Assembly: GCF_963677945.1 (NCBI RefSeq)
Contig: NZ_OY782578.1
Span: 3,625,258 to 3,689,257 of the forward strand
Direction: 5' to 3'
Source: an uncultured Bacteroides sp.
Lineage (GTDB): Bacteria; Bacteroidota; Bacteroidia; Bacteroidales; Bacteroidaceae
Length of the DNA: 64,000 nt
Under the pieces are notes generated by a model. The model had not been told where the DNA came from and ran no database searches. It saw nothing but the letters and a program-made list of their open reading frames with translations. Below, piece by piece: positions 15,784-64,000 of this stretch; position 1 is the stretch's first letter; each line of letters starts with the position of its first letter. A program made the position numbers and the translations under genes.

Positions 15784-16174
15784 ATCTACCACCAAATTTA
15801 AATTAAATCATTGTAAATAAACACATTAACTTAGCGGGAGATAAATATAACGTACAATCTATCTCCCACTAGCAATCTTGCAATCTACTGGTTGTTAAGA
15901 TATTAATTAGTAGGAGATAAAACATATCTGCTACTAATTTCGAATCATCTGCTACTAAATTCTTCCAGACAAGAGAAGTACAAACTTCTGTATTCTTATC
16001 TCTAAAGCCATTTTTATCATTGGCAAGAATAAGAAATAAGCTAAAATTAGTGGTAGATCGACTCAATTTGTAGCAGATAAACAGATTTTATATATAACTA
16101 TTTTTTATCTTCCACCAGTTCAAAGTACTATAAACAAAGAGATTTATGCAAATCTAGTGGCAGATGTAGCAGAT
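15784..16174. repeat. Array of degenerate YTAGTRGNAGAT words in both orientations
   Basis: About ten or more copies of a 12-mer close to TTAGTAGCAGAT, or its complement ATCTGCTACTAA, lie at 15784, 15831, 15861, 15907, 15926, 15947, 16047, 16067, 16107 and 16154, in alternating orientation. Spacing is irregular. The open frame at 15869-16066 is made of these repeats and is not a gene. The same word recurs at 58.9 and 61.5 kb. Confidence 0.7.
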
Positions 16175-58725: not shown

Positions 58726-58920
58726 TAAAGCCATTTATCACAAAGCCTTTTATCACAAAGCCTTTTATCACAAAGCCTTTTATCACAAAGCCTTTTATCA
58801 CAAAGCCTTTTATCACAAAGCCTTTTATCACAAAGCCTTTTATCACAAAGCCTTTTATCACAAAGCCTTTTATCACAAAGCCTTTTATCACAAAGCCTTT
58901 TATCACAAAGCCTTTTATTT
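58726..58920. repeat. 15-bp minisatellite, 13 units
   Basis: Unit CAAAGCCTTTTATCA is repeated head to tail: one diverged copy at 58726-58740, then twelve from 58741, identical except for the last two bases of the final unit. Because 15 is a multiple of three, two minus-strand and three plus-strand frames stay open (VIKGF, CDKRL and others), but none has a credible start context or flank, so coding is unlikely. The near-perfect identity implies recent expansion. It abuts YTAGTRGNAGAT words on the right. Confidence 0.9.
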
Positions 58921-58971
58921 AGTAGCAGATAAAAAATCATCTGCCACTAAATAAAATCATCTGCTACTAAA
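58918..58971. repeat. Three YTAGTRGNAGAT words, direct copy of the cluster at 61.47 kb
   Basis: TTAGTAGCAGAT (58919-58930), then ATCTGCCACTAA (58939-58950) and ATCTGCTACTAA (58959-58970). The following ATCCTGA..CAAC is shared with 61524-61540, so this and the cluster at 61468 are about 70-bp direct repeats flanking the DUF3737-patB operon. Confidence 0.65.
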
Positions 58972-59039: not shown

Positions 59040-59070
59040 TATCAGTAATCCGGGTATGCTTATCCGTAAT
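59040..59070 (+). promoter_or_regulatory. Probable AraC operator before the DUF3737-patB operon
   Basis: Two direct half-sites, TATCAGTAAT (59040-59049) and TATCCGTAAT (59061-59070), start 21 bp apart, two helical turns, as for AraC-family tandem sites. GGTATG lies between them at offset 13. The same arrangement occurs at 63734-63764. The site ends exactly 30 nt before the TAACTTTG box, and no TTTG box lies at the usual -33 spacing, as expected for an activator-dependent promoter. Confidence 0.7.
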
Positions 59071-59100
59071 TTGTGTACAAGGAAGCCTGTTGGGTCTTCG

Positions 59101-59108
59101 TAACTTTG
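59101..59108 (+). promoter_or_regulatory. -7 box of the DUF3737-patB promoter
   Basis: TAACTTTG followed by C matches TAnnTTTGY. It lies 38 nt before the ATG at 59147. Confidence 0.6.
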
Positions 59109-59146
59109 CAGCATAAAAAGATACTGATAATAAATTGAGTAATAAA

Positions 59147-60010
59147 ATGGAACTAATTAAAAATAGATCTTTCGAAGGCGAACGTCCACTGTTTGCTAAC
59201 AATGGCCTACGTCTGGAAGAAGTAACTGTTTTCCCTGGTGAATCGGCATTGAAAGAGTGTAGAAATATCGAAGCTGTAAACTGTGAATTTCAGGGCAAAT
59301 ACCCATTCTGGCACAATGATGGTTTTGTTATCGAAAACTGTTTGTTCAAAGAAGGTGCACGTGCCGCACTTTGGTACTCACGGAATCTTCGCATGAAAGA
59401 TACGCTGGTGGAAGCTCCTAAAATGTTTCGCGAGATGGATGGTATGGTGCTCGAAAATGTACAACTGCCTTATGCTCTGGAAACCTTTTGGTATTGCACC
59501 AATGCGGAGTTACGCAATGTACAAGTAGACAAGGGTGACTACCTTTTTACACATGGCTCTGACATAAAGATTGATGGCTTTACGCTGAATGGCAACTATT
59601 CTTTCCAGTATTGCAAGAACGTAGAAATCAGGAATGCTGAGATCCACTCCAAGGATGCTTTCTGGAATACAGAAAATGTAACGGTCTATGATTCTGTTCT
59701 GGATGGCGAATACCTGGGCTGGCATTCAAAGAATTTACGTCTGGTGAATTGTAAGATTTCCGGTACACAGCCGCTTTGCTATGCCACTGATCTGATAATG
59801 GAAAACTGCACGATGGATGATAATGCCGATCTTGCATTTGAAGATTCAAGTTTAAACGCTACTATTAATAGTCCGGTTCATAGCGTAAAGAATCCTCGTA
59901 GTGGTAGTATTACGGCAGAAAGTTATGGCGAAATCATTATTGACAAAAACATTAAAGCGCCCGGCAACTGTGAACTGAAGCTTTGGGATAATCACACTTG
60001 CTTTGATTAA
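59147..60010 (+). CDS. DUF3737-family right-handed beta-helix protein
   Basis: 287 aa from the ATG at 59147; a TTG four codons upstream is less likely. The sequence is one long ladder of short strands: ECRNIEAVNCEFQGKYPFWH, IENCLFKEGARAALWYSRNL, APKMFREMDGMVLENVQLP, KNVEIRNAEIHSKDAFW. This is the DUF3737 family (PF12541), conserved in gut bacteria, with no signal peptide and no known activity. Four nt separate it from the PatB-like gene, and the two often occur together. Expression is probably driven by the AraC operator upstream. Confidence 0.88.
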   Translation: MELIKNRSFEGERPLFANNGLRLEEVTVFPGESALKECRNIEAVNCEFQGKYPFWHNDGFVIENCLFKEGARAALWYSRNLRMKDTLVEAPKMFREMDGMVLENVQLPYALETFWYCTNAELRNVQVDKGDYLFTHGSDIKIDGFTLNGNYSFQYCKNVEIRNAEIHSKDAFWNTENVTVYDSVLDGEYLGWHSKNLRLVNCKISGTQPLCYATDLIMENCTMDDNADLAFEDSSLNATINSPVHSVKNPRSGSITAESYGEIIIDKNIKAPGNCELKLWDNHTCFD

Positions 60011-60014
60011 TCCC

Positions 60015-61187
60015 ATGATGAAATATAATTTTGATGAAATAACTCCTCGCCGTGGTACTAGCTCCTATAAATGGGATAGTACCGCAGATGCGGATGTTCT
60101 TCCGATGTGGGTGGCTGATATGGATTTCCGCACGGCGCCACCTATTATTGATGCATTGAAGCAGCGCGTGGAGCATGGCATTTTTGGCTATGTAAAGGTG
60201 CCCGATGCTTATTATGAAAAGACGATAGATTGGTTTAGTCGCCGGCACAACTGGCAGATTTCTAAAGAGTGGATTATTTACACTACCGGAGTGGTCCCGG
60301 CAATATCCGCCATTATCAAAGCTGTAGCATCTCCGGGTGACAAGGTACTGGTGCAGACACCTGTGTACAACTGTTTCTTTTCCTCTATTCGTAATAATGG
60401 CTGCGAGTTAGTAACCAGTGATTTGGTTTACGCCAACCGCACTTATACCATAGACTTCGATGATTTAGAACGCAAAGCTACTGATAAGGCTGTAAAGGTA
60501 ATGCTTCTTTGCAATCCTCACAATCCTGCCGGGCGTGTATGGACGCGTGAAGAATTGATGCGCATTGGTGAAATCTGCCTACAGCACAATGTATTCCTCA
60601 TTGCCGACGAAATTCATTGCGAATTCGTTCACCCGGGACATACCTATATTCCTTTTGCTTCTCTTAGCAAAGAGTTACTGCTACATTCTGCAACCTGTGT
60701 TTCACCCAGCAAAGCCTTTAATCTGGCCGGACTTCAGATTGCAAACATCATTATTGCTGATGAAGAAATACGCAGTAAAGTAGATAAAGCCATAAACATA
60801 AATGAGATTTGTGACGTGAATCCTTTTGGAGTAGAAGCGCTTATAGCTGCTTACTGCAAAGGAGAAGAATGGCTCAATCAGCTGAATGTCTATCTCTACG
60901 AAAACTATCTCTGCATGAAGGAATTCTGTGAAAGTTATCTCCCACAATTCCCAATAACCATACTCGAAGGCACTTATCTGGTTTGGATGGATTGCTCAGC
61001 ACTTCACAAAAGTTCAGAGGAAATCGAACAGTTACTTTTAGAAAAAGCCAAACTGTGGCTGAATGAAGGAACGATGTACGGTGCAAACGGTGAAACTTTT
61101 ATGCGGTGGAATATTGCTTGTCCTCGTTCAGTATTAGTAGAAGGATTAAAGCGTTTTAGAAAATTTGCCGAAGCTTTTTCTGAATAA
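60015..61187 (+). CDS. patB: MalY/PatB-family PLP-dependent C-S lyase (cystathionine beta-lyase-like)
   Basis: 390 aa from the ATG at 60015. Fold-type I aminotransferase. N-terminal RRGTSSYKWD and VLPMWVADMDFRTAPPII are hallmarks of MalY/PatB; HNPAGRVWTREEL binds cofactor, VFLIADEIHCEF carries the PLP Asp, and the Schiff-base Lys is in SPSKAFNLAGLQ. Cleaves cystathionine or cysteine to thiol or sulphide, pyruvate and ammonia. Second gene after DUF3737; an alternative is a modulatory role like MalY. Confidence 0.92.
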   Translation: MMKYNFDEITPRRGTSSYKWDSTADADVLPMWVADMDFRTAPPIIDALKQRVEHGIFGYVKVPDAYYEKTIDWFSRRHNWQISKEWIIYTTGVVPAISAIIKAVASPGDKVLVQTPVYNCFFSSIRNNGCELVTSDLVYANRTYTIDFDDLERKATDKAVKVMLLCNPHNPAGRVWTREELMRIGEICLQHNVFLIADEIHCEFVHPGHTYIPFASLSKELLLHSATCVSPSKAFNLAGLQIANIIIADEEIRSKVDKAININEICDVNPFGVEALIAAYCKGEEWLNQLNVYLYENYLCMKEFCESYLPQFPITILEGTYLVWMDCSALHKSSEEIEQLLLEKAKLWLNEGTMYGANGETFMRWNIACPRSVLVEGLKRFRKFAEAFSE

Positions 61188-61230
61188 CAGGAACTGTCTT
61201 TCATTATAAATGAGACTTTTGATAAAGCAA

Positions 61231-61254
61231 ACCGGAGTTATGCAAAACTCCGGT
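61231..61254 (+). terminator. Terminator hairpin of the DUF3737-patB operon
   Basis: ACCGGAGTT and AACTCCGGT form a perfect 9-bp stem with a 6-nt loop, followed by CTACCTTTTAT, an imperfect T-run. Confidence 0.7.
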
Positions 61255-61292
61255 CTACCTTTTATAAAACTACTAGACACATTTGTGCATCC

Positions 61293-61391
61293 TTGTACAA
61301 AAGAATGCATTCTTCTGTACAAAACAATTAATTCTTTTGTACAGAAGAATGTTTTGTTTTGTACAAGATTACATAAACATCCCGCCTGAAA
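61293..61391. repeat. TTGTACAAAAGAAT word cluster plus a fragment of the GC-rich element
   Basis: TTGTACAAAAGAAT (61293-61306), its inverted near-copy ATTCTTCTGTACAA (61309-61322), a further ATTCTTTTGTACAGAAGAAT at 61331-61350 and TTTTGTACAA near 61357. At 61375-61388 AAACATCCCGCCTG matches one end of the GC-rich element at 551-638. As at the other two copies, the GC element directly follows a locus-specific word cluster. Confidence 0.65.
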
Positions 61392-61467
61392 AATAAAATA
61401 TCTCTAGAGAGATTCGAAGAAGGCTCGCCGGAGATTTATTGAATGCTGGAAGGGTTGGTATTTCGAG

Positions 61468-61639
61468 TTAGTGGCAGATGATTTCTATCTGCTATTAAAC
61501 TAAAATCATCTGCCACTAAAACGCATCCTGACAATCAACAACTTAGAAATTTACTAGTGGGAGATAAATGGTAATTATTTCTATCTACCACTAGATAAAA
61601 TATTAATTATCAAATCATTAGTCTAAATTAGTAGCAGAT
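61468..61639. repeat. Cluster of YTAGTRGNAGAT words in both orientations
   Basis: Copies at 61468, 61487 (inverted), 61508 (inverted), 61554, 61583 (inverted) and 61628. The part 61468-61540 is a direct copy of 58918-58990. Confidence 0.7.
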
Positions 61640-61764
61640 AAGCAAAAAAAAATTTGAAAAAAAATCTATTGGAGTTAACCGTAGAGAAATAAAAAAGAGC
61701 AAGATAAGTAAAACAGAAAACCGGGGATTAAATTACCTTTGCTATTTCACTGAACAACAAAGAT

Positions 61765-62712
61765 ATGAGCGTTAAAGAGCAAAGCAAACAGGAATATATT
61801 GCAAGGATTAATAAGGTAATGGATTACATAGACAACCATATAAACGAACCTTTATCCTTAGGAACGCTAGCGGGTGTGGCCAATCTGTCTCCATATCATT
61901 TCCACCGGATATTTACATTATTCGCAGGCGAGAGTTTATCAGCTTTCATTCAACGAATAAGAATAGAAAAAGCGGCTTCTTTAATCAGGGTATACAAAGA
62001 TGTTCCTATCAGTGAGATTGCCTATAACTGCGGATTCAGTAGTGTGTCTATCTTTAGCAGAACTTTCAGAAAGTATTTCAATACATCGGCTACGGATTTC
62101 AGGAACAGAGAAAAAGCTTTTCTTCTCATTAATGGTTCTTATTATAGCAAGGATGGTAAAGTGTTCAGCAAGAATAATCAACAACATCACAGCATTGATT
62201 TGCAACTTTGCAACATCAATTTAAAACAATTAATTATTATGAACACAAAGATTGAAATTAAAGAAATGCCGGAGATGAGAGTTGTTTATTGTCGTCATAA
62301 AGGTGCTTTCAAAGACATTAACAAAGCGTATGACAAATTAATGAAATGGGCAGGACCAAGAGGTTTACTAAACTTTCCGGAAACTAAATCGCTGACCGTT
62401 TATCATGACGATCCTTCAATTACCGAGATTGAGAATGTACGCCAAGATGCTTGTATCACCGTTAATGAAGATGTTAAAGTAGACGGAGAGATTGGTAAAA
62501 TGATTGTTGAAGGGGGTAAATACGCTGTAGGACGTTTTGAAATTACTGAAACTGAATTCGAACAAGCCTGGAATACAATGTGTTTGTGGTTTACAGAAAA
62601 TGGATACCAGCCGGGGGATGGCAGTACTTATGAATTATACTACAATGATCATAATGAGCACCCGGAAAAGAAATTTATTCTGGATATCTGTATTCCGGTC
62701 AGACCGCTTTAA
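61765..62712 (+). CDS. AraC-family regulator with GyrI-like ligand-binding domain
   Basis: 315 aa. N-terminal AraC domain: VMDYIDNHINEPLSLGTLAG, SPYHFHRIFTLFAGESLSAFIQRIR, VPISEIAYNCGFSSVSIFSRTFRKYF. The C-terminal half (from about residue 165) is a GyrI-like/SOUL-type effector-binding domain (IEIKEMPEMRVVYCRHKGAF, FEQAWNTMCLWFTENGYQ, YELYYNDHNEHPEKKFILDICIPV). This Rob-like architecture senses small amphipathic or cationic compounds in related proteins. TACCTTTG box at 61734-61741. Single gene. Confidence 0.92.
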   Translation: MSVKEQSKQEYIARINKVMDYIDNHINEPLSLGTLAGVANLSPYHFHRIFTLFAGESLSAFIQRIRIEKAASLIRVYKDVPISEIAYNCGFSSVSIFSRTFRKYFNTSATDFRNREKAFLLINGSYYSKDGKVFSKNNQQHHSIDLQLCNINLKQLIIMNTKIEIKEMPEMRVVYCRHKGAFKDINKAYDKLMKWAGPRGLLNFPETKSLTVYHDDPSITEIENVRQDACITVNEDVKVDGEIGKMIVEGGKYAVGRFEITETEFEQAWNTMCLWFTENGYQPGDGSTYELYYNDHNEHPEKKFILDICIPVRPL

Positions 62713-62767
62713 TTAAAAAATAAATGGAAGGGGATAATTTTCTCCTTCCATTTATATATATCAATTA

Positions 62768-63670
62768 TTAATGCTGCACTCTATATTCATTCGGCGAAAC
62801 GCCAACACGTTTCTTAAACAGTCGGCTGAAATGCTGAGGGTATTTGAATCCCAACTCATAAGCAATCTCGCTAACCGATTTACTTGTATCATACACCATA
62901 TCTTTTGCGGTTTCGATTAACTTTAGCTGTATATGTTCCAGCGCAGATTTACCGGTTTCTTTCTTGATCAAATCTCCCAGATAATTTGCTGACAGATTGA
63001 GCTTATCGGCACAATATCCCACGGTAGGCAGACCAATGTTCTGCGGTTTGTCTGACGAAAAATAATCTCCGAGCAGATTCTCAAACCGAACAATTACATC
63101 TTTATTTATATGTTCACGAGTTATAAACTGGCGATCATAAAAGCGCTTGCAATAATTAAGCAACAGTTCTATGTTTGATGTTATCAAAGTCTTGCTGTGT
63201 TTATCAATAGAATGATTCAATTCCAGTTCTATTTTATGCAGGCAATCAATTACAACTATTCTCTCTTGTTCTGACAAATGAAGAGCTTCATAGACTTCAT
63301 AAGAAAAGAAGGTGTATTCTTTCATATTTCGCCCAAGAGAAGTTCCACGAATCAAGTCCGGATGGAACAACAACGCCCAGCCTTTTGGCTGAAAATACTC
63401 GCCGTTATCTTCTACACCAAGAACCTGTCCCGGTGCAATGCACACCAACGTTCCTTCTTGATAGTCATAATAGTTGCGTCCATAAATCAGATCTCCGCAT
63501 TTTACATCTTTCAGATATATGGCATAAAAGCCGAAATTATGACGCATATGTGTTATCTTGTTAGACTTTGACATATCAACAACACTAACTAATGGGTGCA
63601 ATGTTTCCAGTCCGAGAAAAGCATTATAATCACATATATTATCTATTTTTATAATCTCATTCATAAGCAT
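62768..63670 (-). CDS. AraC-family regulator, divergent from the aldo/keto reductase
   Basis: 300 aa, or 298 from the second Met. N-terminal cupin-like sensor (GTLVCIAPGQVLGVEDNGEY, PKGWALLFHPDLIRGTSLGR). C-terminal AraC domain: VGYCADKLNLSANYLGDLIKKETG and VSEIAYELGFKYPQHFSRLFKKRVGVSPNEYR. It is transcribed away from the aldo/keto reductase; the gap holds the 21-bp-spaced half-sites at 63734. The same site before DUF3737-patB suggests that this protein activates both. Relatives of this group often sit beside oxidoreductases. Confidence 0.92.
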   Translation of the reverse strand: MLMNEIIKIDNICDYNAFLGLETLHPLVSVVDMSKSNKITHMRHNFGFYAIYLKDVKCGDLIYGRNYYDYQEGTLVCIAPGQVLGVEDNGEYFQPKGWALLFHPDLIRGTSLGRNMKEYTFFSYEVYEALHLSEQERIVVIDCLHKIELELNHSIDKHSKTLITSNIELLLNYCKRFYDRQFITREHINKDVIVRFENLLGDYFSSDKPQNIGLPTVGYCADKLNLSANYLGDLIKKETGKSALEHIQLKLIETAKDMVYDTSKSVSEIAYELGFKYPQHFSRLFKKRVGVSPNEYRVQH

Positions 63671-63733
63671 TTATATATTAGTTGCAAGACAAAAGTAGAA
63701 CTTTTTTTGTTATTTAATTCATAAGACTGCTGG

Positions 63734-63764
63734 TATCTGTAATAATGGTATGTATATCAGTAAT
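63734..63764 (+). promoter_or_regulatory. Probable AraC operator before the aldo/keto reductase
   Basis: TATCTGTAAT (63734-63743) and TATCAGTAAT (63755-63764) start 21 bp apart with GGTATG between them at offset 13, as in the site at 59040-59070. It ends 30 nt before TAATTTTG, the same distance as at the other site. Confidence 0.72.
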
Positions 63765-63794
63765 ATGTATAACATTCACCCCGGAAATCCGGCA

Positions 63795-63802
63795 TAATTT
63801 TG
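63795..63802 (+). promoter_or_regulatory. -7 box of the aldo/keto reductase promoter
   Basis: TAATTTTG followed by C fits TAnnTTTGY; no TTTG box at the usual -33 spacing. It lies 59 nt before the ATG. Confidence 0.55.

Positions 63803-63858: not shown

Positions 63859-64000
<142 letters not shown>

Follow-up and report, generated by a model that had tools for sequence, protein, structure and literature searches.

A putative AraC-type switch with an operator at the -33 promoter position in Bacteroidota

Introduction

Few regulators have been mapped in the Bacteroidota. Near the end of the 64,000-nucleotide stretch analyzed here (the window; contig NZ_OY782578.1 of an uncultured Bacteroides sp.), two intergenic regions share a long sequence motif. 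One region precedes a gene for a DUF3737 protein and patB, which encodes a C-S lyase, while the other lies between the gene for an AraC-family protein and an aldo/keto reductase gene. An earlier note, made from the letters of the window, proposed that the two motifs are operators of a two-promoter regulon activated by the AraC-family protein. The locus thus raises the question of which protein reads these sites, how it would act on the promoters and which genes it would control. Our data point to a switch that is conserved across the phylum Bacteroidota and probably turns on detoxification-like enzymes together with DUF3737.

The operator is confined to one region of the genome

We searched for the sites with the pattern TATCnGTAATnnnGGTATGnnTATCmGTAAT, which covers a 31-bp core, and used the reversed pattern as a control. 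Both window sites, which had been aligned without gaps, match the pattern with 0 mismatches:

59040..59077, plus strand: operator A (half-sites 59040-59056 and 59061-59077; core 59040-59070)
63734..63771, plus strand: operator B (half-sites 63734-63750 and 63755-63771; core 63734-63764)

These are the only cores in the window at ≤3 mismatches, and 100 shuffles yielded 0 matches. The whole-genome scan that the earlier note had called for returned 3 matches at ≤3 mismatches in 4.57 Mb, all clustered in an 8.3-kb region around the AraC gene rather than scattered, and the reversed pattern gave 0 matches in the same genome at the same threshold. The third site (G000:C1:3692583-3692613; L004:8584-8614) contains 1 mismatch and lies outside the window, 3.6 kb past the second.

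A profile of 135 aligned sites (≤4 mismatches, with sites in identical surroundings counted once) revealed a full operator of 38 bp composed of two direct 17-bp half-sites 21 bp apart. Half-site 1 is WATCnGTAATnnnGGTA (offsets 0-16) and half-site 2 is ATCnGTAATnnnTnTA (offsets 21-37), with the end TnTA. The core originally described is therefore correct, but the operator is longer than had been thought, as each half-site spans 17 bp. In the GGTATG of that description, which represents the second box of half-site 1, GGTA is the only portion kept across the family; the full GGTATG is conserved in close relatives only. In five close genomes, 37/38 positions of operator A are invariant compared to 51/80 positions upstream and 19/23 in the spacer.

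Half-site 2 lies at the position of the -33 element

TAnnTTTG is the standard -7 box of Bacteroidota -33/-7 promoters. Each window operator is followed by such a box at precisely the distance that had been noted:

59101..59108, plus strand: -7 box TAACTTTG, beginning 30 nt after the operator A core
63795..63802, plus strand: -7 box TAATTTTG, beginning 30 nt after the operator B core

The same arrangement, 30 nt and then a -7 box (TAAATTTG), is present at the third site, and therefore there are at least three promoters. The regulon reading is supported but the count of two is too low, the third site being located beyond the window. Because some of the 135 profile sites had been found with the box as part of the search pattern, spacing was judged on loci chosen by the AraC protein alone (described below). 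Of the 43 exact TAnnTTTG occurrences found within 45 nt of a site in these loci, 41 start at 30 nt; when one box mismatch is allowed, the box is found at 30 nt in 69/85 sites.

Neither window promoter has a TTTG at the usual -33 distance, in agreement with the earlier note; the TTTG at 59070-59073 lies within half-site 2, at a gap of 27 nt from the -7 box. This absence is general: TTTG at a gap of 18-22 is found in 0/43 site promoters versus 29/260 other TAnnTTTG promoters of the same loci, and TTG at the -33 distance in 1/43 versus 59/260. TTTG at a gap of 27 occurs in 4/43 site promoters. Hence, these promoters share the -7 box of Bacteroidota -33/-7 promoters but lack the -33 TTTG, and half-site 2 occupies its position.

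This architecture resembles that of the Escherichia coli (E. coli) araI1-I2 site, where AraC contacts two direct 17-bp half-sites, 21 bp apart, with the promoter-side half-site beside the -35 region. Half-site length, spacing and placement next to the -35/-33 region are alike in the two systems, whereas the operator described here has another sequence, is combined with a Bacteroidota -33/-7 promoter and serves other targets.

The operator is linked to one AraC subfamily

The protein that would read the operator is encoded divergently from the genes behind operator B:

62768..63670, minus strand: AraC-family regulator of 300 aa, the likely regulator (HTH_18, E 4.9e-20)

It contains an AraC-type double helix-turn-helix (HTH) domain, which is also matched by HTH_AraC (E 2.1e-13), and a PDB sequence search recovered relatives only for the C-terminal part with this domain. 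Homologues share many invariant or almost invariant residues in the two HTH motifs, and the operator core is similarly constant. We collected homologue loci by the protein alone, as the best 80 of 183 relatives (62-99% identical). These come from Bacteroides, Parabacteroides, Alistipes, Chitinophaga, Mucilaginibacter, Flavobacterium, Chryseobacterium and uncultured Bacteroidota; the AraC protein of Bacteroides luti DSM 26991 is 99% identical to that of the window.

At ≤4/24 mismatches, 69/80 homologue loci contain a total of 85 sites (again with identical surroundings counted once) and the reversed pattern gives 0. The proposed tie between the AraC gene and the operator is also borne out by position: 74/79 Bacteroidota loci have a divergent site within 300 nt upstream of the AraC homologue (counted at ≤5 mismatches and only for loci with ≥150 nt before the AraC gene), while the reversed pattern at ≤5 mismatches matched once in 1.28 Mb of homologue loci. 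The five loci with no adjacent site are L057, L063, L064, L065 and L082, two of which (L057 and L082) have a site elsewhere. The comparison of upstream regions that had been suggested revealed the pattern both beside AraC orthologues and upstream of target genes in relatives. These in silico tests, together with the restriction of the pattern within the genome, argue for the AraC-operator pairing, and we consider it highly probable that the sites constitute a regulon and that this AraC protein is its regulator.

Genes behind the three sites

The gene positions given in the earlier note are correct. Those downstream of the two window operators are as follows:

59147..60010, plus strand: DUF3737 gene (PF12541), 287 aa from the ATG; Pfam E 1e-124, 415.6 bits against a gathering cut-off of 23.9
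60018..61187, plus strand: patB, PatB-family C-S lyase, directly after DUF3737; TIGR04350, 454.5 bits against a cut-off of 340
63862..64000, plus strand: aldo/keto reductase 1 (AKR1), cut by the window end and complete at L004:5120-6109; Pfam Aldo_ket_red, E 1.1e-72

DUF3737 additionally has a weak Beta_helix match, which is below the cut-off. From strand and spacing, the genes behind each site would form an operon. Operon A (site 59040) consists of DUF3737 and patB. Operon B contains AKR1, a cupin protein with two carboxymuconolactone-decarboxylase (CMD) stretches and a metallo-beta-lactamase-fold hydrolase, and operon C, behind the third site, encodes a DkgA-like reductase (AKR2), a YqhD-like iron alcohol dehydrogenase, a flavodoxin and an FMN reductase-like protein. 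The link originally drawn between DUF3737, a C-S lyase and a reductase is thus retained but the set is larger, as it includes a second aldo/keto reductase, the iron alcohol dehydrogenase, flavodoxins, the cupin/CMD protein and the metallo-hydrolase. The close relative L201 aligns with the window as far as 59048 and then from 61200 onward; it lacks DUF3737-patB, and the break is inside operator A.

The operator in the family and upstream of DUF3737

A scan of 301 family genomes, in which the 30-nt spacer and box were made part of the pattern (≤3 mismatches), identified 126 sites with a box in 66/301 genomes, compared to 1 match of the control pattern. At least 53/126 sites have a listed AraC homologue no more than 15 kb away, versus about 2% expected. 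The first genes of 123 sites (identical surroundings counted once) were clustered and named from one representative per cluster. Aldo/keto reductases (36) and flavodoxins (15) lead the list, followed by smaller clusters, among them DUF3737 (6), 4Fe-4S proteins (6), iron alcohol dehydrogenase (5), alpha/beta hydrolase (4), DXP synthase (4), hexapeptide transferase (3), zinc alcohol dehydrogenase (2) and MATE (2) and MFS (2) transporters. The representative of one cluster of 9 has no Pfam match, and another 9 sites have no nearby reading frame.

The DUF3737 family was found in 82/149 genus genomes, 80 of which were testable (G014 is a fragment and G026 has 8 nt of upstream DNA); G032, G380 and G402 contain multiple DUF3737 matches and were counted once each, and 17 short loci were swapped for longer stretches of the same genes. 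The operator is present upstream of DUF3737 in 56/80 genomes: within 300 nt in 34, at 316-725 nt in 2 and at 1.2-2.1 kb in 20. The reversed pattern gave 0 matches in the same upstream stretches. The -7 box begins at 30 nt in 53 of the 56 genomes and at 29 or 31 nt in L156, L171 and L222. In the first, higher-scoring DUF3737 loci, 47/52 have a site (48 with L152, where it lies inside an over-long reading frame), versus 8/29 lower-scoring loci. In two other genera of the family (L016 and L018), an AraC protein of the same family (36% and 41% identical), a site and DUF3737 adjoin one another. In a sample of the phylum, DUF3737 was found in 1/247 genomes, the source genome itself. A PDB sequence search with DUF3737 recovered no relatives, and literature searches turned up neither this operator nor DUF3737.

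Proposed mechanism

The explanation that best accounts for these data as a whole, and which we consider likely, is that an AraC-type activator, with an operator in place of the -33 element, controls carbonyl/electrophile detoxification together with DUF3737-PatB. The AraC protein 62768-63670 would bind the 38-bp operators as a dimer on the two direct 17-bp half-sites. As half-site 2 stands in the place of the -33 element, we propose that the protein bound there recruits sigma/RNA polymerase to the TAnnTTTG box, which would switch on all three operons, namely DUF3737-patB, AKR1-cupin/CMD-hydrolase and AKR2-iron alcohol dehydrogenase-flavodoxin-FMN reductase. In this scheme the electrophiles that induce the system would also form cysteine S-conjugates, which PatB would cleave, and DUF3737 may have an accessory role.

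The signal is a more tentative matter. Reactive carbonyls or other electrophiles are the likeliest candidates and may be sensed by the N-terminal domain, although we give an electrophile signal somewhat less than even chances. Cys58, Cys143 and Cys174 are found in 76/80, 75/80 and 75/80 homologue rows, respectively, and all lie outside the HTH domain. Because these three cysteines are conserved in about 94-95% of homologues, thiol-based sensing through them is conceivable, although it is a guess that this conservation allows. An extension to a phylum-wide electrophile response, whereby the AraC subfamily, with its conserved N-terminal domain and three conserved cysteines, senses electrophiles directly, -33-less promoters drive carbonyl reductases, flavodoxins and efflux, and a DUF3737-PatB arm handles cysteine S-conjugates in Bacteroidaceae, seems to us rather improbable.

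A close known counterpart is the aldehyde response of E. coli YqhC with yqhD-dkgA; one source describes binding of YqhC to the yqhC/yqhD spacer (PMC8249747) and another a gel shift with the promoter region of yqhD-dkgA (PMC8262776). As in that system, an AraC-family regulator gene is divergent from a reductase operon and YqhD-like and DkgA-like enzymes are among the (here predicted) targets; here, by contrast, the set comprises three promoters and additional genes, among them DUF3737-patB. The third-site enzymes are homologous to E. coli YqhD (30%) and DkgA (45%), and by analogy with YqhC/YqhD/DkgA the target enzymes would be those expected under reactive carbonyl/electrophile stress. Orthology of the regulators was rejected: the match of YqhC to AraC 62768-63670 is confined to the HTH domain (27.5% over 80 aa). 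The best operator match near E. coli yqhC-yqhD has 10/24 mismatches. Since the regulator is not orthologous while the YqhD and DkgA enzymes are homologous, the likeness is one of layout and gene content. In E. coli K-12 (L235:1-4951) metC, which encodes a C-S lyase, lies one gene from yqhC-yqhD-dkgA, an echo of patB beside reductases that is probably coincidence.

The operator is testable, and any Bacteroidota genome can be searched for its parts (half-sites, spacing and lack of a -33 box). For DUF3737, the association with a C-S lyase and with carbonyl reductases suggests a function that could be assayed. The short promoter and its likely cognate regulator could become a genetic tool in Bacteroides.

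Alternative explanations and opposing evidence

Many AraC-family proteins both repress and activate, and such dual action being common in the family, AraC might repress these promoters or do so in addition to activating them. This is improbable, as the operator does not reach the -7 box that follows it and these promoters have no -33 box (0/43), so that they should be weak without an activator; the fixed 30-nt spacing (41/43) also suggests polymerase contact. The operator might instead be read by a neighboring protein encoded within the same cluster, whose HTH is likewise of the AraC type:

61765..62712, plus strand: second AraC-type protein (AraC HTH plus GyrI-like), probably not the regulator

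The HTH of E. coli YqhC is nearer to this AraC-GyrI protein (31% over 113 aa) than to AraC 62768-63670, and the protein is kept in the close relatives L201, L202 and L204. Yet it is present in 1/80 homologue loci while the operator is in 69/80, and the close relative L203 has the AraC gene and site with no AraC-GyrI protein in the 19 kb examined. Given this rarity we judge it very unlikely to be the regulator. That the likeness of the two window sites reflects chance or a spread repeat element with no regulatory role has next to no probability; other short repeats do flank the DUF3737 operon, but the shuffles and the reversed pattern in the genome gave nothing, the distance to the -7 box is fixed and the site is conserved across the phylum, and chance similarity was rejected on these grounds.

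More serious, if still unlikely, is the possibility that several paralogous AraC proteins share the operator, such that the three promoters answer more than one signal. Genomes often have several homologues and several sites, sites with no AraC homologue within 15 kb are common among the matches listed, and the source genome encodes a 60% identical AraC paralogue (G000:C1:3400353-3401258). However, next to that paralogue only a weak operator-like match is present (8/24 plus 1/6 mismatches), in front of its own reductase gene, and at that threshold chance matches occur too, with one reversed-pattern hit each in the window and L004. This weakness suggests a separate specificity, and the data hint that the paralogue differs from the window AraC in this respect, with cross-talk possible. 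At the paralogue locus (L200:5273-7265; G000:C1:3399272-3401264) the AraC gene is divergent from a DkgA-like reductase gene, and the weak match is at L200:6224 on the minus strand.

Several observations weigh against the proposed AraC-activated regulon itself. Up to 73/126 family sites have no AraC homologue within 15 kb among the matches listed, and DXP synthase and hexapeptide transferase as targets do not fit simple detoxification. Bacteroides luti (L045) has no DUF3737 or PatB within 20.9 kb at the locus and keeps the other two operators, so that the DUF3737-patB operon appears dispensable. DUF3737 has no upstream site in 24/80 genus genomes, 5 of which have a close AraC homologue, and the 20/56 distant sites sit behind one or more same-strand reading frames; the last of these usually ends ≤120 nt before DUF3737, and from such gaps the frames and DUF3737 are likely one operon. 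The co-occurrence counts favor the pairing, with a site in 53/58 genomes that have a close AraC homologue (E ≤1e-85) and in 3/22 genomes that lack one, but this threshold was chosen after the table had been seen; with the search's preset E of 1e-20 the values are 53/67 and 3/13 (p 2e-4, with no correction for kinship). Clustering by kinship is strong in a tree of the 80 DUF3737 proteins, and as only about two independent pairs, both in agreement, inform the test, significance is unreachable and the association of AraC with the site is not proven on this tree.

Repeats near the DUF3737-patB operon

A 15-bp tandem repeat (AAAGCCTTTTATCAC; 12.8 copies, 99% matches) occupies 58727-58918 and ends about 120 bp before operator A. 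Short repeats (AAATCATCTGCCACTAAA) are located on both sides of DUF3737-patB, at 58934-58971 and 61467-61520, with a weak further copy at 15942-15959. Downstream of patB, at 61293-61366, a 22-bp unit is repeated 3.4 times and is nearly its own reverse complement, possibly representing a terminator or hairpin.

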